Origin: Zoogloeaceae bacterium | GTDB taxonomy: Bacteria; Pseudomonadota; Gammaproteobacteria; Burkholderiales; Rhodocyclaceae | NCBI GenBank assembly: GCA_031290535.1 | Contig: JAITNI010000030.1 | Coordinates: 1-13,896, forward strand | DNA length: 13,896 nt | Reading direction: 5' to 3' | In this document: piece by piece, positions 521 through 13,259 of the stretch | Position numbering within the stretch: position 1 is the stretch's first letter | How the letters are laid out: every line of letters begins with the position of its first letter | Program-made: the position numbers and the translations under genes | Notes under the pieces: generated by a model | What the model saw: the letters and a program-made list of their open reading frames with translations, nothing else | The model's database searches: none | Told to the model about the DNA's origin: nothing

Positions 521-2380
521 CTACACCGAGTCCAGCACCGCAGGCAGGCGACCGCTGTCGATGCGGGGGCTTTCGGAGAGGAGTTCCTTCATGTCCAGAA
601 TGAGCACGATCTGGCCATTGGAGAGCGTGGTGACGCCTGCCACGCCGTGCGGGCGGAAATCCTCCAGGGATTTGATGACCGCGTCGTCGCGGCCAGCAAA
701 ACTGTCTACGCCCAGAATAAAACTCCGCTCCGCCGTCTGCATGAAGACGCCGAATTCGGGATAGCGGTTCTGCGGCCAGCCAAGCAGGCTGGCGAGCGAG
801 ACCAGCGGCAGGATTTCGCCGCGCACCACCATTGTCGATTTGCCGCCCACTTCCTGCACCTTGTCGCGCTCGATGGGCAGAATTTCGCGCACCAGCGAGA
901 GCGGCAGGGCGAAGGGCTGGTCTTCCAGCAGCACGAGGAGCACCGGCAAAATCGCCAGCGTCAGGGGGAGCGAAATCAGGAATACGGAACCCTTGCCGGG
1001 TTCGGAACGGATTTCAATGGAGCCGTTCAGTTTCTGGATATTGGTCTTCACCACGTCCATGCCGACGCCGCGCCCGGAAACATCGGAAATTTCCGTCTTA
1101 GTGGAAAAACCGGGCAACAGGATGAGATTGAAGCTCTGCCGGTCATCCAGCGTATTGGCTTCCTCTTCGGTAATCAGCCCCTTTTCAACCGCCTTGGCGC
1201 GGATGCGGTCGGCCACCATGCCGCGCCCGTCGTCGGCCACGATCAAAACAATGTGGTCGCCTTCCTGACGCGCTTCCAGCCGCACCAGACTCTTGGCGGA
1301 CTTGCCCGCCGCCGCCCGTTCGCCGGGGTCTTCGACGCCGTGATCGACGGCATTGCGAATCAGGTGAATCAAGGGGTCGGACAAATCCTCGATCATGGTT
1401 TTGTCGACTTCGGTTTCTTCCCCCGCCAGCACCAGTTCCACGTCCTTGCCCAGTTGCCGCGCCAGATCGCGGGCGATGCGGGGATACTTCTGGAACAGCC
1501 GTCCAATCGGCTGCATCCGGGTCTTCATCACCGAGTTTTGCAGGTCGGAGACCAGCAAATCCAGTTGGCTCACCGCCTGATCGAGCGCGTGCAGGGTTTC
1601 GGAATCGTTCTTGCCCGCCAGAATGTCGGCTCTGAGGCTGGTGAGCCGGTTCTTGGTCAGGCCGATTTCACCCGACAGGTTCAGCACCTGATCGAGCCGC
1701 GAGGTATCGACCCGGATGGTGGTTTCGCGGGATTTTTCCTCCGCCCGCCGCACGCCAGAACTCCGTCCGCCGCCGCCGGACGACTTGACGGCGGGCGCGG
1801 CGGGCGGCGGGGCCGTCTGAATGGCATGGGCAGCGTCTGCCGCCGCGTTCGCCTCGTGGCGCGGGATCACTTCGCCTGTCGCGGCGGTCGCGCCGCCCAC
1901 AGCGGCGTGCAGGGCATCCCAATCCGGCGCGGGGGTGCCTGCCGTGGCAGAGGCGGCAGCAGCAGGCGCGGGGGCGGCGGTCTCCCCTTCCCCGCGCGCG
2001 GCGGCTTCCAGGGCGCTGATGAGTTCCGGCGGCGCGGCTTGCGGCAGGACGCTGGCGGAAAGGTCGCCAAACATGTCCCGCACGCCCTTGGTCGCAATCA
2101 TGATGAGATCCATCAATTCGGGCGACAGGCGCAATTCTCCGTTCCTGAGCTTGTCGAACAGGGTTTCCGTGCGATGGCACAGCGTCACCAGTTCCGCCGC
2201 GTTCAAAAACCCCGCGCCGCCCTTGATGGTGTGAAAGCCCCGAAAAATGTCGTTCAGCAAGCCCCGGTCATCGGGCATTTTTTCCAGATCGACCAGTTTG
2301 TTGTCGACATCCGACAAGAGGTCGTTGGCCTCCTGCAAGAAATCCTGCAACAGATCTTCCATGCCAGCAAAGTCGCTCAT
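521..2380 (-). CDS. cheA: Chemotaxis histidine kinase CheA
   Basis: CheA autophosphorylates in response to receptor state and passes phosphate to CheY and CheB (and CheV) at the inner face of the membrane. The 619-residue product opens with an HPt (P1) domain at about 1-105, with the phospho-accepting His50 in GFHTIKGGAGF. Residues 106-215 are an Ala/Pro/Gly-rich linker without a recognisable CheY-binding P2 domain. P3 dimerisation helices follow from about 218 (TIRVDTSRLDQVLNLSGEIG). The P4 ATPase has the N box HLIRNAVDHG (339-348), G1 DDGRGM (383-388), F box GFSTKT and G2 GRGVGMD (436-442). The CheW-like P5 domain occupies about 475-605. The ATG at 2380 is preceded by GGGAGA. The gene starts 15 bp after cheZ and is the last of the cluster. 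Absence of P2 is a reading of composition, not a fold search. Confidence 0.97.
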   Translation of the reverse strand: MSDFAGMEDLLQDFLQEANDLLSDVDNKLVDLEKMPDDRGLLNDIFRGFHTIKGGAGFLNAAELVTLCHRTETLFDKLRNGELRLSPELMDLIMIATKGVRDMFGDLSASVLPQAAPPELISALEAAARGEGETAAPAPAAAASATAGTPAPDWDALHAAVGGATAATGEVIPRHEANAAADAAHAIQTAPPPAAPAVKSSGGGGRSSGVRRAEEKSRETTIRVDTSRLDQVLNLSGEIGLTKNRLTSLRADILAGKNDSETLHALDQAVSQLDLLVSDLQNSVMKTRMQPIGRLFQKYPRIARDLARQLGKDVELVLAGEETEVDKTMIEDLSDPLIHLIRNAVDHGVEDPGERAAAGKSAKSLVRLEARQEGDHIVLIVADDGRGMVADRIRAKAVEKGLITEEEANTLDDRQSFNLILLPGFSTKTEISDVSGRGVGMDVVKTNIQKLNGSIEIRSEPGKGSVFLISLPLTLAILPVLLVLLEDQPFALPLSLVREILPIERDKVQEVGGKSTMVVRGEILPLVSLASLLGWPQNRYPEFGVFMQTAERSFILGVDSFAGRDDAVIKSLEDFRPHGVAGVTTLSNGQIVLILDMKELLSESPRIDSGRLPAVLDSV

Positions 2381-2395
2381 TTTCGTTTCTCCCTT

Positions 2396-3268
2396 CTAAA
2401 AACCCAGGCTGTCGAGCAGATCGTCGACCTGTTGCTGATTGACCACCACATCGGAACGGCCTTCGGCATTGATGACCGGGCCATTCATGAGGGTGGTGAC
2501 TTCCTCCGAACGTTTGTTCAGGGGCACGACTTCAATCAACGCTTTCATCAGGCCGTTTTCAAGCTCCTGGGCCAGACTGACGATTTTTTTGATGACCTGT
2601 CCGGTCAAATCCTGAAAATCCTGCGCCATCATGATTTCCAGCAACTGCGCTTTCAGGATGCCGGTTTTGTCGGAAAGGCCGCTGTTCAGATAGGCGCGGG
2701 TCTCGGTCGCCAACTGTTTGAATTCGGCGGTACTCATCTGGCCGGCAAACACCTTGTCCCAACGCCCGCCCAGAGCTTTGGCGGCGGCTTCCAGCGCATC
2801 GACCGCCGGATTGGCGACATCGGTGGCATTCAAGACCCGGCAAGCCGCCTGTTCGGTCAGGCTGGCAACGTAGGCCAGCCGATCCTTGGCGTCCGGCAGG
2901 GTATTGCTGACGGTTTGTTCCAGAAGTTTGTCGTAGCCCAGTTCGTGCAGGGTGCTGTGCAACTGGCGCGCCATTTGCCCCAGACTGTTGAACACCCTGG
3001 CCTGTGAGGGCCATTCGTCATCCGCTGCATCACCCTCGCCGCCTTCCGCAACGGGCAGGATGCTGCCGCTGGCGGCGGAAGCGGTGTGAGATTGGGATTC
3101 GGCCACAACGCTGTCGAACAGGGCTTGCAGGTCGTCGTTGTCGCTCGTCGCGCGGGCAGGCGCGGCGGCGGGACGTGGTGGTGGCGGAGGCGGCGCGGCA
3201 GCGCGCACACTGGCAGCCACGGAATCAAAGAGTGCCTCAAGGTCGGCAGAATCATTAGCATTTGTCAT
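2396..3268 (-). CDS. cheZ: Protein phosphatase CheZ
   Basis: CheZ removes phosphate from CheY-P and so ends the tumble or reversal signal. The 290-residue product has the long helical hairpin with the active-site stretch MMAQDFQDLTGQ. Asp220 and Gln224 here correspond to E. coli Asp143 and the catalytic Gln147. The C-terminus QVDDLLDSLGF matches the CheY-binding tail of enteric CheZ. The protein is longer than the E. coli form (about 214 residues) because of an N-terminal extension of about 85 residues. This extension contains two repeats, DLEALFDSV (9-17) and DLQALFDSV (46-54), separated by a Pro/Ala run. The ATG at 3268 is preceded by AAGGAG at 8-base spacing. It lies between cheY (18 bp) and cheA (15 bp). 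Confidence 0.95.
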   Translation of the reverse strand: MTNANDSADLEALFDSVAASVRAAAPPPPPPRPAAAPARATSDNDDLQALFDSVVAESQSHTASAASGSILPVAEGGEGDAADDEWPSQARVFNSLGQMARQLHSTLHELGYDKLLEQTVSNTLPDAKDRLAYVASLTEQAACRVLNATDVANPAVDALEAAAKALGGRWDKVFAGQMSTAEFKQLATETRAYLNSGLSDKTGILKAQLLEIMMAQDFQDLTGQVIKKIVSLAQELENGLMKALIEVVPLNKRSEEVTTLMNGPVINAEGRSDVVVNQQQVDDLLDSLGF

Positions 3269-3286
3269 TGGTTGCGCTCCTTGTGC

Positions 3287-3679
3287 CTAGCCCATTTTGT
3301 CGAAAATCTTGTTCAGCTTTTCGGAGAGCGTTGCCGCGTTGAAGGGTTTGACGATATACCCGCTTGCCCCGGCCTGCGCGGCGGCGATGATGTTTTCCTT
3401 CTTGGCTTCCGCCGTAATCATCATCACCGGCAGGTCTTTCAAGGCCGGCGAGGAACGAATGGTCTGCAACAGGGTCAGGCCGTCCATGTTCGGCATGTTC
3501 CAGTCCGTCACCACGAAATCGAAATCGCCGCCATTGAGTTTTTGCAGGGCAGCGACGCCATCCTCGGCCTCATCGACATTCGTAAAGCCCAGGTCTTTCA
3601 GAAGATTGCGGACAATGCGCCGCATGGTGGAAAAATCGTCCACCACCAGAATTTTCAGTTTGGCGGGATCAACAGGCAT
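3287..3679 (-). CDS. cheY: Chemotaxis response regulator CheY
   Basis: This is a single-domain receiver that, when phosphorylated by CheA, binds the flagellar switch. The 130-residue product has the acid pair Asp14-Asp15 (VVDD), the phospho-acceptor Asp59 in [12 protein letters not shown], the switch Thr89, Tyr108 and Lys111. These match E. coli Asp12/13, Asp57, Thr87, Tyr106 and Lys109 with a constant offset of two, as does Trp60. Such close match to the E. coli signature, with cheZ next door, marks it as the motor-binding CheY. The start lies 5 bp beyond the cheV2 stop with only a weak GAG ribosome site, so translation may be coupled to cheV2. Confidence 0.96.
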
Positions 3680-3684
3680 GATTT

Positions 3685-4617
3685 TTATCGCTCAATCAGG
3701 GGTCGCAAGGTATCGGACAATACTTCCGCGTCGAACTTGGCCACATAGGCATCCACCCCCACCGAACGCCCCATCGCCTTGTTGGCTTCGGACGACAGCG
3801 AGGAATGCATGACCACGGGCACGCCTTCAAAGCGGGCGTCGGACTTGATGTTTTTGGTCAGCACGTAGCCGTCCATTTCCGGCATTTCCGCATCGACCAG
3901 AATCAGGTTGATTTCTTCACGCAGGGGTTTGCCGGTCTGCTGGCTGTGCGCGGCAATGGCTTGCAGGCGCGTCCAGGCTTCCGCGCCGTTGGTGGCGTGT
4001 TTGTGCTTGACGCCCAGCTTGTCCAGTACCTCGATGATCTTTTTGCGCGCCACGATGGAATCGTCGGCAAAAAAGACGCTGGCGTCTTCCTGCACCCTGG
4101 CGGGCAGAATATCCACAATCACGGCCTCGCCAAAGGCGTTCGACAAAATCTGCTCCACGTCCAGAATGGAAACCAGATGTCCGTTATCGAGTTCAATCAC
4201 CGAGGTAATCAGCCCCTGATTGTTGCTAATCAGCCCTTCCGGCGCTTTGACCCGCTCCCAGTCCATGCGGATGATGCGGTCGACCTCATGCACCAGAAAA
4301 CCCAGCGTGCGCTTGGAATATTCGGCCACCATCATCGTGCCGCCCAGCGCCGTGGGCGGATTTTCCAGGTCGAGAAAAGAGACGAGCGAGAGGACGGGAA
4401 TCACATTGCCGCGCAGGGAAATCAGCCCTTCCACGCCACGCGGCATGTTGGGCGTTTTGGTGATGTGCGGTGTGCGCCCGACTTCGCGCACCTTGAACAC
4501 GTTGATCCCGAACGTTTCCCGCGTGCCGAGGGAAAAGAGCAGGATTTCCATCTGGTTGGAGCCAGCCAGCCGGGTGCGGGCATCCACACCCTCCAGTAGA
4601 TTCTTGTTGTGCGCCAT
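3685..4617 (-). CDS. cheV: Chemotaxis coupling protein CheV (second copy)
   Basis: CheV joins a CheW-like coupling domain to a receiver domain. It links receptors to CheA and can act as a phosphate sink or adaptation element. The CheW-like domain covers about 15-165 ([31 protein letters not shown]). The receiver covers about 178-305, with Asp185-Asp186, phospho-acceptor Asp242 in [10 protein letters not shown], Ser272 at the switch position and Lys294. The product is 310 residues, the usual CheV length. The ATG at 4617 follows GGAGA. The gene begins 18 bp after cheV1 and ends 5 bp before cheY. It is a diverged paralogue of cheV1 and lacks the short basic/acidic insertion seen there after FSLG. 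Confidence 0.94.
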
Positions 4618-4635
4618 TTTGAAAGGTCTCCAGAA

Positions 4636-5610
4636 TCAGGCGGCGGTCGTCGCGGGCAGGGTTTTGGTCAACCGGCGCGCCAGGGTTTCGGAAAGCCGCT
4701 GCGGCTCAAACTTGGGCACGTATTCATCCACACCCACCGAAAGCCCCAACTGCTGGTTGGACATGCCGGAGAGGGAAGAATGCATGATGACGGGAATGGC
4801 GGCAAAGCGGGCGTCGTTCTTGATCTTTTTGGTCAGGATGTAGCCGTCCATTTCCGGCATCTCAATATCAGTGAGGACAAGACTGATGGCTTCCGCCGCT
4901 GTTTTGCCCGTCGCCTTGGCGTAATCGGCCATTTTTTCCAGTTCTTCCCACATCTGCCGCCCGTTGTTGGCCGCAACGTATTTGACGCCCATGACTTCCA
5001 GCGCACGGATGATCTGTTTTCTCGCCACAATGGAATCGTCGCAGAAAAACACGGTGACGTCCGGGTTGTCCAGCGGCGTGATGCTCTTGAAGCGAATATC
5101 GTCTTCCTCGGCGTTGTGGGCGGTATCGGCCAGCACTTTTTCGACGTCCATCATCATGATGAGGCGACCATCGTCGAGTTCCGTCACCGCCGTCACCAGA
5201 CCGCCCATCTGGGCCATCAGCATTTCCGGCGGCACGCGCATCATGCTCCAGTCCAGACGCAGAATGGTATCGACCGCCTCCACCAGAAACCCCTGCGTAT
5301 GACCGTTATATTCGGTGACAATCATGATGCCGCGTGGCGTATCGGAATTGACTTCCGCGTAACGGGCCAAATCCACGACCGGCACCAGTACGCCGCGCAG
5401 GCTCACCATGCCTTCAACAGCGGGCGGCATTTCCGGGGCGGTGGTGATCGGCGGCGTCCGCATGACCTCGCGCACCTTGAACACATTGATGCCGAAGGTT
5501 TCGCGCCGCCCGGTACGCTTGTCCTCCCCAAGGGAAAAGAGCAGGATTTCCAGCTTGTTGGTGCCCGCCAGTTTGGTGCGCTCGTCAATGCTTTTCAGAA
5601 GTTCAGACAT
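4636..5610 (-). CDS. cheV: Chemotaxis coupling protein CheV (first copy)
   Basis: This is a CheW-receiver fusion like its downstream neighbour, with 324 residues from the chosen start. The CheW-like domain lies at about 15-165, with an insertion EDKRTGRR directly after the LLFSLG strand that the other copy lacks. The receiver starts near residue 184, with the acid pair Asp191-Asp192, phospho-acceptor Asp248 in LTDIEMPEMDG, Ser278 and Lys300. The ATG at 5610 is preferred over the in-frame TTG at 5616 because AAGGA lies 7 bases before the ATG. It is the first gene of the downstream half of the cluster and follows the 291-bp gap after cheB, so it probably starts a transcription unit of five genes ending with cheA. 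Confidence 0.94.
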   Translation of the reverse strand: MSELLKSIDERTKLAGTNKLEILLFSLGEDKRTGRRETFGINVFKVREVMRTPPITTAPEMPPAVEGMVSLRGVLVPVVDLARYAEVNSDTPRGIMIVTEYNGHTQGFLVEAVDTILRLDWSMMRVPPEMLMAQMGGLVTAVTELDDGRLIMMMDVEKVLADTAHNAEEDDIRFKSITPLDNPDVTVFFCDDSIVARKQIIRALEVMGVKYVAANNGRQMWEELEKMADYAKATGKTAAEAISLVLTDIEMPEMDGYILTKKIKNDARFAAIPVIMHSSLSGMSNQQLGLSVGVDEYVPKFEPQRLSETLARRLTKTLPATTAA

Positions 5611-5707
5611 TTTCAATTCCTTACAGGTTTCAGGCGACCATCCCCGCGCGCCGCCAGCACATAGTGGAAGGATACACAGAAATCCCTTTCACTGGAACTG
5701 TTACCCC

Positions 5708-5716
5708 GTTATAGCA
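5708..5716 (-). promoter_or_regulatory. Candidate extended -10 promoter for cheV1-cheV2-cheY-cheZ-cheA
   Basis: The minus strand reads TGCTATAAC here, an extended -10 element (TGn plus TATAAC). Transcription would start near 5701, giving a leader of about 90 bases before the cheV1 ATG. No good -35 lies at 17 bases, as expected of extended -10 promoters but also a weakness. A small palindrome, GCAAAcaaaaTTTGC (5727-5741), lies just upstream and could be a binding site. The rest of the 5617-5907 gap shows no convincing gene, terminator or sigma-28 element. Confidence 0.4.
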
Positions 5717-5907
5717 CATCCCCCCGCAAACAAAATTTGCCACAGCGCGCATCAAGGCAAAATGCGTCCTCGCGGCGCGCCGGTTTCCGTGGTTCCGGCT
5801 GGCGCGGTATGTGAAAGTGTACGGCAGCCCCGCCCGGTCTGGCCGATTTTGTCGCGTACCGTTACCAAACGGGCACACAACAGGACATTCCGGCCTTTTC
5901 GCCGCCC

Positions 5908-7008
5908 CTACAGCGCATGGATGCCGAACTGCGCCAGCACCCTTGCCGCCATCTGGTCGATGCTGGCGACTTCTTCGACCGCGCCGATCAAAAAGGCTTC
6001 CTTGGGCATTCCGTACACCACACAACTGGCTTCATCCTGACCGAAGGTTCTCGCCCCGGCCTGCCGCATTTTCAAAAGCCCCTGCGCGCCGTCCTTGCCC
6101 ATGCCGGTGAGAATGACGCCAACAGCGCGGCTGCCCATCAGCGCGGCGGCGGCGTCAAAGAGCACATCCACGGACGGGCGGTGGCGATTGACGGGTTCCG
6201 TCTGCGCCAGCTCCGTCACCAGACCCGCGCCCTCGCGGCGCACCCGCAGGTGTGAATGTCCCGGCGCGAGGTACACCGTGCCCGGCGTGACGACCTCCCC
6301 GCCCTGGGATTCCAGCACCCTGGGCTGGCACAGGTCATTCAAGCGGGCGGCGAAGGAGGGCGTAAAGGTTTCCGGCATGTGCTGCACCATCAGAATCGGC
6401 GGACACTGAGCGGGAACGCCGAGCAGGAATTTTTTGATGGCTTCCGTGCCGCCCGTTGAAGCCCCCAGAAAAATCACCTTGCCCGCGCCCATGAAAGACG
6501 CCCTCCCCGCCTCATTGCGGACGGACGCGCCAGAAACAGGGGGCGTGGCGGACGCCAAGGTTTTTTTGACGGGAGGGGCAAGGCGCGAGGGCGTGTGTGG
6601 CGGCAGGCGCAGCGGCAGACGCGCCATGCGGGCGGTGCGGATTTTTTCCGCCAGTTCGCGGCCATATTCTTGCAGGGTATCGGCACGCGGCTTGGAAATA
6701 AAATCAATCGCGCCCAGTTCCAGCGCCTTCAAGGTGGCCTGCGACCCCTCCAGCGTAAAGGCGGAAACCATGACGACCCGGATGGGGCGCTCCCGCATGA
6801 TCTGCTCCAAAAACTCCAGCCCCGTTGTTTTGGGCATCTGGACATCCAGCGTCAGTACATCGGGATTCAGGGCGGCGATCATTTCCCGGGCGGCTTCGGC
6901 ATCCGGGGCGCTGCCCACCACTTCCATATCCGGCGCGGCATTGATGATCTCGATCAGACGCTTCCGCATGAACAGGGAATCATCGACGACCAGAACGCGA
7001 ATTTTCAT
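5908..7008 (-). CDS. cheB: Protein-glutamate methylesterase CheB
   Basis: CheB removes methyl groups from (and deamidates) receptor glutamates, resetting sensitivity after stimulus. The 366-residue product has an N-terminal receiver with Asp9-Asp10 and phospho-acceptor Asp55 in TLDVQMPKTTG. A Pro/Ala-rich linker spans about 130-170. The C-terminal esterase has catalytic Ser184 (GASTGG), His210 (QHMP) and Asp306 (GMGKDG), each exactly 20 residues beyond the E. coli positions (164, 190, 286). NRHRPSVDVLF (274-284) is a further family signature. The ATG follows GGAG at about 5 bases. The gene begins 18 bp after the cheR stop and ends the upstream half of the cluster. Confidence 0.96.
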   Translation of the reverse strand: MKIRVLVVDDSLFMRKRLIEIINAAPDMEVVGSAPDAEAAREMIAALNPDVLTLDVQMPKTTGLEFLEQIMRERPIRVVMVSAFTLEGSQATLKALELGAIDFISKPRADTLQEYGRELAEKIRTARMARLPLRLPPHTPSRLAPPVKKTLASATPPVSGASVRNEAGRASFMGAGKVIFLGASTGGTEAIKKFLLGVPAQCPPILMVQHMPETFTPSFAARLNDLCQPRVLESQGGEVVTPGTVYLAPGHSHLRVRREGAGLVTELAQTEPVNRHRPSVDVLFDAAAALMGSRAVGVILTGMGKDGAQGLLKMRQAGARTFGQDEASCVVYGMPKEAFLIGAVEEVASIDQMAARVLAQFGIHAL

Positions 7009-7026
7009 GCAGACTCCATGTTGACT

Positions 7027-7968
7027 TCAACCCGGCGTTTTATGCGCCAGCGCATACACCGTCTTGCCCAGAGAATGAAACAGATCGACCGCGTGTAAAA
7101 AATTTTCCGAATGCCCGGCAAACAGCAGGCCCTCCTTTTGCAACAGCGGCGCGAAGCGGGCGAGAATTTTGTACTGGGTGGGCTTGTCAAAATAAATCAT
7201 CACATTGCGACAAAAAATCACGTCCAGCGGCCCGCGCACCGGCCAGTTCGGTTCCAGCAGATTGATGCGCTTGAAACTCATCATGCGCCGCAATTCCGGG
7301 CGGGCAATCCACATGTTTTCCTGCGCGCCCGTCCCCCTGCTGAAATGGCGCTGCAATTCCCCGCCGGGAATCCGGCTCACCCGCTCAAAGGGGTAGACGC
7401 CCTTTTCCGCCGAGGCCAGCACATCGGTATCGAGGTCGGAACACAAAATGCTCACCTGCTGCCCGCTGCCCCTGGGAAAGGCATCCGCCACGGTCATGGC
7501 GATGGAATAGGGTTCCTCGCCGGTGGAGGCGGCGCAGCACCAGATATTGATCTGTTTTCGCGTCAGCGCCACTTTTTTGAGATGCTCGGCCAGCAGGGGA
7601 AAATGGTGCGGCTCGCGGAAAAAGGAGGTGAGATTGGTGGTGAGCGAATTGACGAACAGCTCCCACTCCCCGGCGTCATGGCTGGCTTCCAGATGGTCGA
7701 GGTACTGGGCGAAATTTTTCATGTTCTTGGCGCGCAGACGGCGCGCCAGACGCGAGTACACCATGTCCTGCTTGGTAGGCGAGAGCGAAATGCCCGCGTG
7801 GGCGTAAATCAGCTTCCTCACTCGCTCGAAATCCGCCGCCCGGAATTCAAACTCGCGCTGCACGCTGCTGCCGCCCGTGCCCTGGGTGGCGTTGCTGGCC
7901 TGACGAATCGCCGCCAGCCGCTCGGTGAGCGTGGGCGGTCTGGGAGGCGTCTCTGGCGTGGGGGTCAT
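7027..7968 (-). CDS. cheR: Chemotaxis protein methyltransferase CheR
   Basis: CheR methylates receptor glutamates with S-adenosylmethionine, opposing CheB. The 313-residue product has an N-terminal helical domain (about 38-118, ending in the signature LTTNLTSFFRE). The SAM-binding fold carries WCCAASTGEEPYS (143-155), DLDTDVLASAEKGVYP (178-193) and CRNVMIYFD (253-261). The first about 35 residues are Pro/Thr-rich and poorly conserved in appearance. The ATG at 7968 was chosen over an upstream in-frame ATG at 8052, which would overlap the end of motB. AAGGA stands 7 bases before 7968, leaving a 28-bp gap to motB. Confidence 0.95.
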   Translation of the reverse strand: MTPTPETPPRPPTLTERLAAIRQASNATQGTGGSSVQREFEFRAADFERVRKLIYAHAGISLSPTKQDMVYSRLARRLRAKNMKNFAQYLDHLEASHDAGEWELFVNSLTTNLTSFFREPHHFPLLAEHLKKVALTRKQINIWCCAASTGEEPYSIAMTVADAFPRGSGQQVSILCSDLDTDVLASAEKGVYPFERVSRIPGGELQRHFSRGTGAQENMWIARPELRRMMSFKRINLLEPNWPVRGPLDVIFCRNVMIYFDKPTQYKILARFAPLLQKEGLLFAGHSENFLHAVDLFHSLGKTVYALAHKTPG

Positions 7969-7996
7969 GCCGCGTTCCTTGTGGTGGGTCTGGCGT

Positions 7997-8911
7997 TCAG
8001 GGTTCCGCCGCTGACAGGGGTTCCGTGTCTTCCAGATAATACTCGGGGCCATTTTCCAGAATGGCGGTTTCTGTGCGTTTATTGAGCACGATGATGCTGA
8101 TGCGGCGGTTGATAGGATTCAAGGGGTCGTTCGGGTCAAAGAGCACCGAGGACGACAGCCCCTCCACGCGCAGCACCTTGAGATCGTCCATGCCGCCCGC
8201 CACCAGTTCCCGGCGCGAGGCGTTGGCGCGGTTGGCCGACAGCTCCCAGTTGGAAAAGCCCCGCGCGCCGCCGGAAAACTGGGCGGCGTCCGTATGTCCG
8301 GCCAGACTCAGGCGATTCGGCACGCCATTCAACACCGCGCCGATTTCACGCAAAATGACGCGGGTGTAGGGCTTCAACTGGTCGCTGGACAGATCGAACA
8401 TGGGCCGGTTCAATTCATCAACAATCTGAATCCGCAGCCCTTCGGTGGTGATGTCCAGCAGCAACTGGTTTTTGAACTGGAGGAGTTGCGGCGAATCCTC
8501 AATCAGCTTTTCGATGCGCCGCTTCAGGGTTTCGAGCGATTGCCGCTCCTGACGCTCAAAGGCCAGCCGTTTGTCCCGGAGCGAAATGCGCCGGTTTTCC
8601 GCTTCCACATCGCCCTGTTTGACCTGCCCGGAGCTGCGCGTCAAATCCTGCCCGCCGCCGTTGATAATGCTCGTCGCGTCGCCCACGCCGCTGCCGCCGT
8701 CCGCCGCCAGCTTGAGCGGATTCTGGAAAAAATCGGCAATGCCTTCCAGATCGCCCTTGGCGGTGGAACCCAGCAGCCACATGAGCAAAAAGAAGGCCAT
8801 CATCGCCGTCACAAAATCGGCGTAGGCAATTTTCCACGCCCCGCCATGCGCGGCGGCAGCGCTTTTCTTGACGCGCTTGATGACAATGGGACGGGAGGAA
8901 TCGTCACTCAT
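7997..8911 (-). CDS. motB: Flagellar motor stator protein MotB
   Basis: MotB is the peptidoglycan-anchoring stator subunit that carries the proton-binding aspartate. It has one membrane segment near residues 29-50 (AYADFVTAMMAFFLLMWLLG), with the essential Asp32 at the same number as in E. coli. A plug and linker region follows. The OmpA-like periplasmic domain occupies about 160-278, with SLAGHTDAAQF (202-212), NWELSANRA and NPINRRI. The product is 304 residues. The ATG at 8911 is preferred over an in-frame TTG at 8929 because AAGG lies 9 bases upstream and Asp32 then aligns. It is separated from motA by 55 bp and precedes cheR. The Asp32 context suggests H+ coupling. Confidence 0.96.
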   Translation of the reverse strand: MSDDSSRPIVIKRVKKSAAAAHGGAWKIAYADFVTAMMAFFLLMWLLGSTAKGDLEGIADFFQNPLKLAADGGSGVGDATSIINGGGQDLTRSSGQVKQGDVEAENRRISLRDKRLAFERQERQSLETLKRRIEKLIEDSPQLLQFKNQLLLDITTEGLRIQIVDELNRPMFDLSSDQLKPYTRVILREIGAVLNGVPNRLSLAGHTDAAQFSGGARGFSNWELSANRANASRRELVAGGMDDLKVLRVEGLSSSVLFDPNDPLNPINRRISIIVLNKRTETAILENGPEYYLEDTEPLSAAEP

Positions 8912-8966
8912 CCTGGCAAGCCTTGGCAAGAGATTCGGCAGGAGGAGAGAAGGCGCAAATCAGGCA

Positions 8967-9824
8967 TCATCTTCCCTTGCGGCTCTTCAGTTCTTCTTCG
9001 AGTTCGATAAAGCTCGGACGCGCTCCGGAAGGCAGGTTCTTGCGGCCAAACTCCACCGCCACCTGCGGCGCGTAGCCGGACATGGAGGCCAACAGCACCG
9101 CCTTGATGACGCCATACACCCGCGAATCGTCATCCGCCCGGTGCGCGAGCAAGGAGGCCACCGGCTGCACAAAGCCGTAGGAAACCAGAATCCCGAGAAA
9201 CGTGCCCACCAGCGCGCCGCCGATCATCTTGCCAAGCACGGCGGGCGGCTCGCCCACCGATCCCATGACGTTGACCACCCCCATCACCGCCACCACAATC
9301 CCGAACGCGGGCAGCGCGTCGCCGGACATCTGCACGGCGTGCGCCGGGGTGGAGAGTTCGTGGTGATGCGCTTCGAGTTCCTGCTCCATCAGGCTTTCGA
9401 TTTCCAGCGTGTTCAGGTTGCCGCCGACCATCATGCGCAGATAGTCGGTCATGAATTCAATGACGTGATGATTGCGGAGAATGTCCGGGTATTTGGAAAA
9501 AATCGGGCTGGCGTCGGGATTTTCCACGTCGTTCTCGATGGACATCAGCCCTTCCTTGCGAACCTTGGCGAGCACTTCAAACAGCAGCGCCAGCACATCC
9601 ACATAATACGCCCTGGTGTAGGGCGAGCCTTTGAACAGGCTCGGCAAAGCGCCCAGCACCGCCTTGATGACCTTGCCGTTATTGCTCGCCACAAAGCCGC
9701 CCATCAGGAGACCCAGAATGGCCAGATACTCCATCGGCATCCAAAGGGCGGCGAGGCTGCCGTGTACCGAAAACGTCCCGATGGCCGCAGCAAGAATGAT
9801 GATGTAGCCAATAATTAAAAGCAT
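8967..9824 (-). CDS. motA: Flagellar motor stator protein MotA
   Basis: MotA is the ion-channel and torque-generating stator subunit that pairs with MotB. The 285-residue product has hydrophobic segments near 2-20, 32-48, 170-190 and 200-220. The cytoplasmic loop between them carries charged residues equivalent to those that touch FliG (Arg89 and Glu97 here, Arg90 and Glu98 in E. coli). The functional prolines Pro172 (DALPAFG) and Pro221 (VQPVASLL) match E. coli 173 and 222, the same offset of one. The ATG at 9824 has an excellent AGAGGAAA at 4-base spacing, so the 20-codon longer in-frame start at 9884 is rejected. It is the first gene of the motility block. Confidence 0.96.
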   Translation of the reverse strand: MLLIIGYIIILAAAIGTFSVHGSLAALWMPMEYLAILGLLMGGFVASNNGKVIKAVLGALPSLFKGSPYTRAYYVDVLALLFEVLAKVRKEGLMSIENDVENPDASPIFSKYPDILRNHHVIEFMTDYLRMMVGGNLNTLEIESLMEQELEAHHHELSTPAHAVQMSGDALPAFGIVVAVMGVVNVMGSVGEPPAVLGKMIGGALVGTFLGILVSYGFVQPVASLLAHRADDDSRVYGVIKAVLLASMSGYAPQVAVEFGRKNLPSGARPSFIELEEELKSRKGR

Positions 9825-10027
9825 GCGCTTTCCTCTGCGCCCGCAACAGGCAATCTGGATTGGAGTAAAAGTGACGCCCGCCATTGTAATGGCTTGCCGC
9901 CATTTCGACCACCGCCAATTCTTCCTGCATGAGAAAATACGACGGGCGCGGCGGCAATCGGGGCATTATCAACCGGAGCGCCAATCCCTGCAATGCTAAA
10001 CTTCCCGAATTATCCTAAAATTTCGCC
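9825..10027. promoter_or_regulatory. Divergent intergenic region between motA and the Nudix gene
   Basis: This 203-bp stretch must carry promoters for both directions because the flanking genes diverge. No convincing -35/-10 pair or sigma-28 (TAAAGTTT-N11-GCCGATAA) site was found. On the minus strand GTTGATAATGCC partly resembles a sigma-28 -10 without its -35. On the plus strand TAAAAT (10016-10021), 6 bases before the Nudix start, is too close for a normal leader. Confidence 0.3.
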
Positions 10028-12963: not shown

Positions 12964-12997
12964 AAAAAAATGCGGTCACATCAGGGTATGACCGCAT
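12964..12997 (-). terminator. Rho-independent terminator of the candidate small RNA
   Basis: Read on the minus strand, ATGCGGTCA and TGACCGCAT form a perfect 9-bp stem (12997-12989 with 12978-12970) around a 10-base loop, followed by seven T residues (12970-12964). On the plus strand the hairpin is followed by AAATCC, so it works only in the minus direction. Confidence 0.85.
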
Positions 12998-13062
12998 AAA
13001 TCCACACTATCAGAAGGTGGAGGAGACAAACACAGAAACGGCCGGAAACCGACGGTTTCAAT
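12964..13062 (-). ncRNA. Candidate small RNA, about 99 nt, with anti-Shine-Dalgarno segment
   Basis: A promoter and a terminator face each other on the minus strand with no open frame between. The transcript would start near 13062. Its parts in order are: a 5' stem-loop GAAACCgtcGGTTTC (13059 to 13045); a pyrimidine-rich, apparently unpaired linker containing UCUCCUCCACCUUCU (13026 to 13012); and a terminator hairpin with a U run. The C-rich linker is complementary to purine-rich ribosome binding sites, a common design of trans-acting, Hfq-type small RNAs. No known family was recognised. The intergenic position between panD and the OsmC-like gene, convergent with panD, supports an independent gene. 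Expression is inferred only from these signals. Confidence 0.6.
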
Positions 13063-13069
13063 GCACGGT

Positions 13070-13097
13070 ATTATAACGCGCTTTTTGGGAAAAGCAA
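13070..13097 (-). promoter_or_regulatory. Promoter of the candidate small RNA
   Basis: The minus strand shows TTGCTT (13097-13092), a 16-base spacer and a perfect TATAAT (13075-13070). The predicted start is A at about 13062. The region upstream is A/T-rich, as is usual for strong promoters. Confidence 0.62.
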
Positions 13098-13129
13098 GAA
13101 TTTTTTTGCAGCGCACAAACCATACGGAA

Positions 13130-13144
13130 TGAGAATTAATGGCA
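13130..13144. promoter_or_regulatory. Weak Fur-like box
   Basis: TGAGAATTAATGGCA agrees with the Fur 7-1-7 pattern TGATAAT-N-ATTATCA at 10 of 14 positions. It lies about 70 bases upstream of the small RNA start, too far to cover that promoter, and about 175 bases from the OsmC-like gene. In an A/T-rich stretch a match of this quality can arise by chance. Confidence 0.2.
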
Positions 13145-13181
13145 TGATAACAAGCGTAACCCATTGATTTTTAATGTCTAT

Positions 13182-13217: not shown

Positions 13218-13259
13218 GACCGGTAAAGTAAAGTTTTTTTGTGCGCCACAACATTTGTT

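Follow-up and report, generated by a model that had tools for sequence, protein, structure and literature searches.

A PhaR-type operator in the promoter of a divergent RF02278 small RNA gene suggests that carbon storage turns the RNA on in a Zoogloeaceae bacterium

The intergenic region between panD and an OsmC-like gene in a contig of a Zoogloeaceae bacterium (the whole stretch analyzed, 13,896 nucleotides of DNA, is called the window here) very probably contains a genuine small RNA gene, and the RNA predicted from it is, by its sequence, almost certainly a divergent, single-seed member of the RF02278 family. The stretch from 13119 to 12963 on the minus strand probably represents an RF02278 small RNA that is controlled by the repressor PhaR, blocks ribosome-binding sites and is released upon the accumulation of polyhydroxybutyrate (PHB), and the PhaR site found in its promoter suggests that carbon storage turns the RNA on. 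The family, the structure, the synteny, the operator match and the co-occurrence of the operator with PhaR are results of the present analysis; the processing, the involvement of Hfq and the mode of action are taken from papers on related RNAs; and we infer transcription, repression by PhaR, the response to PHB and the targets in this organism.

A promoter and a terminator facing the same way on the minus strand had been noticed in a first-pass annotation of this DNA, and both are confirmed. The -10 box is a TATAAT at 13075-13070 and the -35 box a TTGCTT at 13097-13092, with a spacer of 16 bases. The -35 box is weak, in that it matches TTGACA at the TTG only and goes unlisted in a consensus scan that requires four of the six positions; when eight loci of the genus are aligned, all eight have the TTG and five have CTTGC. 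The terminator stem (12997-12970) is counted as 11 pairs by the scan and contains the 9-bp perfect core originally found by reading, and it is followed by seven T residues (12970-12964), so that hairpin and U tract together occupy 12997-12964. The annotation had also named conservation in relatives as a point to be checked, and in the same alignment conservation is seen at the -10 region, in the seed, along the 3' side of hairpin 1 and in the terminator tract, and the 5' extension is variable. Five of six terminator pairs show changes on both sides that preserve the pairing.

The predicted primary RNA is about 100 nt long (13062-12963, minus strand, with a putative 5' end) and is predicted to form three hairpins: one within the 5' extension (13062-13029), hairpin 1 with the loop CUGAUA (13021-13001), and the terminator hairpin, the last two making up a double-hairpin core (13028-12964). 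Folding of 13063-12962 gives -36.7 kcal/mol compared with -19.4 kcal/mol for shuffled sequences (z -5.9), and none of 200 shuffles folds as well. The claim that no reading frame lies between the promoter and the terminator survives only in part: a 62-aa frame on the minus strand (12976-13164) crosses the region, although its start codon (ATG) precedes the predicted 5' end of the RNA. The crossing frame, together with the RF02278-like hairpins that elsewhere follow phasin genes at a distance of 10-21 nt, is what could be cited in favour of the view that the feature is the tail of a longer transcript, be it a terminator, a 3' UTR or an RNA antisense to panD, with no separate small RNA. This view is hardly credible, given that a promoter with a conserved -10 region stands just upstream of the RNA, that some 120 bases separate the 3' end of the RNA from the panD stop codon (12843), leaving no overlap with panD, and that the changes in the length of hairpin 1 seen in sister loci would shift the 62-aa frame. 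A free-standing small RNA gene, as first proposed, is the best reading of the sequence.

The description of this RNA as undescribed and of no recognised family does not hold. At the curated Rfam thresholds the whole window yields only a tRNA, which is the gene at 1-58 that is cut by the window edge, but a low-threshold Rfam scan rules out an unknown family: the RF02278 covariance model matches 13028-12964 over its full length (1-64) with 44.5 bits and E 8e-8, which is 5.5 bits below the curated cut-off of 50 bits. RF02278 is the Rfam family of Betaproteobacteria toxic small RNAs, or double-hairpin RNAs, to which NcS27 and S17 belong. The toxicity was reportedly named by Kimelman in 2012, according to papers that cite that work. 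Two other models give much weaker matches than RF02278, namely Bp1_781 (23 bits) and AniS (RF02274; 19.2 bits against a cut-off of 50, E 0.76). The remainder of the window includes, at 521-9884, minus-strand frames that resemble chemotaxis and motility genes (cheA, cheY, cheW/cheV, cheB, cheR and motA/motB-like, named by reading).

The RNA in the window has the two hairpins of RF02278, the second being the terminator with its U tract, as well as the 5' CU-rich seed UGUCUCCUCC. It is the only RF02278 match in its own genome at E 1 or better; when this genome and 59 relatives are taken together, a match at E 0.01 is present in 40 of the 60 and one above the cut-off in 24. The gene order in the window is OsmC-like gene, small RNA, panD, and in two sister genomes an RF02278 RNA that scores above the cut-off lies in the same place, between the OsmC-like gene and panD (65.4 bits in G005 and 62.3 bits in G008). 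Because the model match is full length and the neighbourhood is shared with copies above the cut-off, the RNA in the window is read as a divergent RF02278 copy. The same order is found with the variant RNA in G004; panD stands beside the RNA in G006 and G001, with the OsmC-like gene not in view, and in G018 neither gene is in view, no panD lying near the RNA within the limits of its contig. An OsmC-like motif occurs near the RNA in 42 of the 64 genomes having a copy of 49 bits or more. Adjacency to panD was rejected as a trait of the family: only two of 80 named panD loci (L037 and L044) have the exact seed and terminator, and the adjacency is therefore a local arrangement of the genus. A distant search of a plasmid collection with a relative's RNA and promoter gave no match.

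In canonical RF02278 members the 5' end carries one CU-rich seed, GUCUCCUCC (site 1), and the hairpin-1 loop a second, CCUCC (site 2). In the window, site 1 is kept at 13027-13019 as a complement of the Shine-Dalgarno sequence, with its GUCUCC unpaired with a probability of 0.98 or more in the fold of the full RNA and its last UCC within hairpin 1, and site 2 is lost, CUUCUGAUA standing in its place as a short loop with GAUA. Of 20 genomes of the genus, five have the single-seed variant (the window and four sisters) and five the canonical pattern, both forms being seen in G004 only, an assembly with 6% contamination. Across the family, 86 of the 90 copies that score at least 49 bits have GUCUCCUCC, and GUCUCCUCCA occurs in all 27 cores of a chosen set that was aligned. 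The lost site 2, the score below the Rfam cut-off and the lack of any RF02278 match in several sister genomes could also be understood if the copy were decaying, that is, if the small RNA were losing its function in a reduced genome. Such decay is improbable: site 1 shows no change, the operator matches exactly, the -10 box and the terminator are intact, and five of the 20 genomes of the genus have the single-seed form with the terminator pairing kept.

The element that the first-pass annotation missed is a PhaR-type operator just upstream of the small RNA promoter. A palindrome like TTGTGCnnnGCACAA stands just before the TTG(C) in most of the RF02278 upstream regions inspected, and it is rare genome-wide, with 0 to 4 sites per genome and 11 of 40 genomes having any, while the palindrome written backwards has no site in the 40 genomes except one in G013. 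Fourteen stretches from a total of 21 palindrome sites were examined, one of them at a small RNA, with two further non-RNA sites (G004 C14 and G038 C10) left out. Among the 13 sites not at a small RNA, five precede phasin genes and one precedes a PHA-synthase-like gene, and PhaR was therefore suspected as the factor that binds the palindrome. Neighbours other than phasin were named by reading their translations. Five of the remaining sites, in five genomes (L146, L148, L150, L151 and L154), lie between a helicase gene and the gene of a small MKAPKILPW protein, which is a candidate new PhaR target, and two (L149 and L152) lie before a gene whose product resembles an ADP-forming acyl-CoA ligase. 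A site of the NtrC type was rejected as an identity for the palindrome, the half-sites facing the opposite way.

The operator consensus of Ralstonia eutropha PhaR is given as YTKNTGCRNYGCANMAR (PMC12849132, in the part of that paper covered), and the site in the window, TTTGTGCGCTGCAAAAA at 13119-13103 on the minus strand, fits this R. eutropha consensus at 17 of 17 positions and ends 5 bp upstream of the -35 box. It is the only exact match to the consensus in the 13,896 bases, four others having two mismatches; one of the four lies at 13238-13254, nearer the OsmC-like gene. The RF02278 copy on contig C1 of G029 likewise has an exact consensus site upstream. A separate observation concerns G025, in which five similar RF02278-like copies (L033, L218, L219, L221 and L222) have the operator centred at -27, a multi-copy expansion.

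The palindrome was first noticed in these RF02278 upstream regions, so the independent evidence consists of the published consensus and a hold-out set only. In the first set, drawn from the first 60 genomes and made up of 73 listed matches and a blast match in G018, with all 33 matches of 50 bits or more retained and only the weakest omitted (none above 33 bits), the consensus with at most two mismatches occurs within 130 nt upstream at 25 of the 33 copies above the cut-off, compared with none for the reversed pattern and a mean of 0.83 (maximum 3) for shuffles. By kinship, the site is found at 19 of 19 copies in the organism's own family and 6 of 14 in other families, and at 12 of 13 when the own genus is taken with weaker copies. 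Random 130-nt windows of panD loci contain a site in 49 of 2000 cases. In the hold-out set, which consists of all 57 matches in the genomes outside the first 60 (40 other genomes, one match being at 49 bits), 24 copies have a site, the reversed pattern is found once, and the shuffles have a mean of 1.97 and a maximum of 5. As a positive control, phasin upstream stretches of 330 nt have a site of at most two mismatches in 29 of 29 cases, the reversed pattern being found once; these are 29 of 30 stretches chosen one per genome from a longer phasin list, one at a contig edge having been dropped. The phasin upstream of the organism's own genome has a PhaR-type site with two mismatches.

The operator also tracks the presence of the regulator, which was searched for in the compared genomes as TIGR01848. 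With copies of at least 49 bits, 40 of the 51 genomes that have phaR show the core TGCRNYGCA no more than 130 nt upstream, and none of the 13 without phaR does (p 1.9e-7); with the looser criterion of up to two mismatches the counts are 40 of 51 and 2 of 13 (p 4.8e-5). Counted by copy, the core is found at 47 of 71 copies in phaR genomes and at 0 of 19 in genomes without phaR, and the reversed core at 0 of 90. Phylogeny was handled only by counting families, of which 15 of 19 have the core with phaR compared with 0 of 9 without it (p 1e-4), and outside the organism's own family the core is found in 23 of 33 with phaR and in 0 of 12 without. Three genomes (G112, G114 and G128) are scored as lacking PhaR on the basis of their absence from 83 listed matches, which assumes that the same 120 genomes were covered by both searches. 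Two of the phaR-less genomes (G031 and G078) have the looser site at an RF02278 copy, and two (G002 and G031) have phasins with PhaR-type sites, so some of the phaR absences may be assembly gaps.

The correspondence is not complete. In 11 of the 51 phaR genomes every RF02278 copy lacks the core site; in G042 five of eight copies of 50 bits or more have neither the core nor a site with two mismatches, and G091, G135 and G152 also contain bare RF02278 copies. Within the genus there is no clean pattern between the presence of the small RNA and that of phaR, and seven phaR-bearing sister genomes (G009, G010, G012 and G014-G017) have no RF02278 match.

The operator sits in an intergenic region that the small RNA shares with the OsmC-like gene, and it must be asked which of the two it serves. 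One possibility is that the RNA is an ordinary RF02278 small RNA without PhaR regulation here, the palindrome serving another factor or the divergent OsmC-like gene. The weaker second site at 13238-13254 is closer to that gene, and copies with an OsmC-like gene in sight have the core site more often (31 of 40) than copies without one (16 of 31). In addition, no phaR turned up in the organism's own genome, which is 62.6% complete; phaR is present in 17 of 19 sister genomes. Against these points stand the 16 RF02278 copies in phaR genomes that have a core site and no OsmC-like motif in a stretch of about 0.9-4 kb, the operators kept in G006 (one mismatch) and G001 (no mismatch), in both of which the RNA has no OsmC-like neighbour in view, and the association of the core site with phaR across genomes. 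The operator, being present where the OsmC-like neighbour is not seen, does not merely follow that gene, and an RF02278 RNA free of PhaR control is accordingly unlikely in our view, while the operator may in part serve the OsmC-like gene as well. Control of the small RNA by PhaR is the preferred reading.

Related RNAs, as described in the parts of the literature covered, make the proposed function concrete. Burkholderia cenocepacia has four double-hairpin RNAs whose CU-rich sites are predicted to cover ribosome-binding sites (PMC5688073, PMC4603805), namely ncS03, ncS05, ncS27 and ncS62, of which ncS27 is 92 nt long and can be processed (PMC5688073). These RNAs and the RNA in the window have in common the full-length model match, two hairpins, a core that starts at UGUCUCCUCC and a U-tract terminator, and the predicted long form resembles that of ncS27; the window RNA departs from canonical RF02278 in scoring 5.5 bits under the cut-off and in the CUGAUA loop, which replaces the second CU-rich seed of hairpin 1. 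Relatives are reported to slow growth on overexpression and to repress mRNAs at the ribosome-binding site (PMC5688073, PMC11722255), but S17S does not impair exponential growth of E. coli (PMC11722255). In Bordetella pertussis, S17 depends on Hfq, is processed by RNase E into an RNA of 67 nt and represses a sigma-54 activator; it was studied as a Bvg-responsive RNA, and repression of its promoter in one growth mode has been postulated, no repressor being named in the parts covered (PMC11722255). The window RNA is like S17 in its predicted long precursor (S17L to S17S), its sigma-70-type promoter and its core beginning at the conserved CU-rich site 1, and unlike it in having site 1 only, S17 having sites 1 and 2. 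A homologue of S17 has been reported in Ca. Desulfobacillus denitrificans AP021857.1 (PMC11722255), and four family members in Herbaspirillum (PMC7011215). CU-rich single-stranded sites complementary to ribosome-binding sites are also known in the NmsRs of Neisseria (PMC5688073), and these siblings and AniS share such sites with the window RNA, although the AniS model gives 19.2 bits only.

A precedent for the regulatory part exists in Sinorhizobium meliloti, in which the small RNA MmgR is repressed by PhaR (PMC12542648, PMC8401924), its promoter being bound by PhaR (PMC12542648). PhaR (AniA) represses the MmgR promoter through a dyad; MmgR is described as belonging to another RNA family (alpha-r8), in alphaproteobacteria. 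Small RNA control of PHA in other bacteria has been described (PMC9049629), with no RF02278 RNA in the parts of that source covered. The terms PhaR, PHB, polyhydroxy and phasin are absent from the main texts of PMC5688073 and PMC11722255, and the first three from the main text of the review PMC10987360; none of the literature titles among the matches listed joins PhaR to the RF02278 family, and the literature covered, which takes in few subscription papers, identifies no transcriptional regulator of RF02278 RNAs.

The mechanism proposed from these observations would operate as follows. When PHB is absent, PhaR would occupy TTTGTGCGCTGCAAAAA beside the -35 box and repress the promoter; when PHB granules form, PhaR would be titrated off the operator, and the RNA of about 100 nt, ending at the terminator, would be made. 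The 5' extension would probably be removed by RNase E, as in S17 and in keeping with the processing of NcS27, leaving a core of about 65 nt that begins at UGUCUCCUCC, and the exposed GUCUCC(UCC) would pair with the Shine-Dalgarno sequences of target mRNAs and block their translation. By analogy with the studied relatives, the targets are probably functions of carbon and amino-acid uptake and catabolism. In the organism's own genome, GGAGGAGA before an ATG is found four times on the forward and seven times on the reverse strand (one place twice) compared with two and four times for a backwards control, which is no clear enrichment, and in ten of these stretches the only frames of at least 110 aa that follow a site are one FliW-like and one TfoX-like (named by reading), so no target is claimed.

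A further connection to stored carbon lies in the phasin genes themselves, some of which are followed, 10-21 nt after the stop codon, by a weak RF02278-like hairpin with a CU-rich start (twice in G027, and in G021, G029 and G020); in a sixth case (G056) the frame test gave no confirmation. These loci (L232, L233, L241, L243 and L246) may represent 3'-UTR small RNAs of phasin mRNAs. In a scan of 30 phasin loci for TCTCCTCC, the loci of the organism's own genus have no such element close behind the phasin gene.

For the family as a whole we lean, with less assurance than for the window itself, towards the view that RF02278 RNAs form a post-transcriptional arm of PHB-granule sensing in betaproteobacteria, kept off by PhaR until granules titrate it away and then lowering uptake and catabolism by masking ribosome-binding sites, with the same output made in some lineages by a hairpin directly behind phasin genes. 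The mode of action of these RNAs is known; a named, testable regulator and signal, PhaR and stored carbon, would be new. If the view is correct, PhaR would be a candidate for the repressor postulated at the S17 promoter, and the link between PhaR and MmgR in S. meliloti would be carried over to another family of small RNAs.
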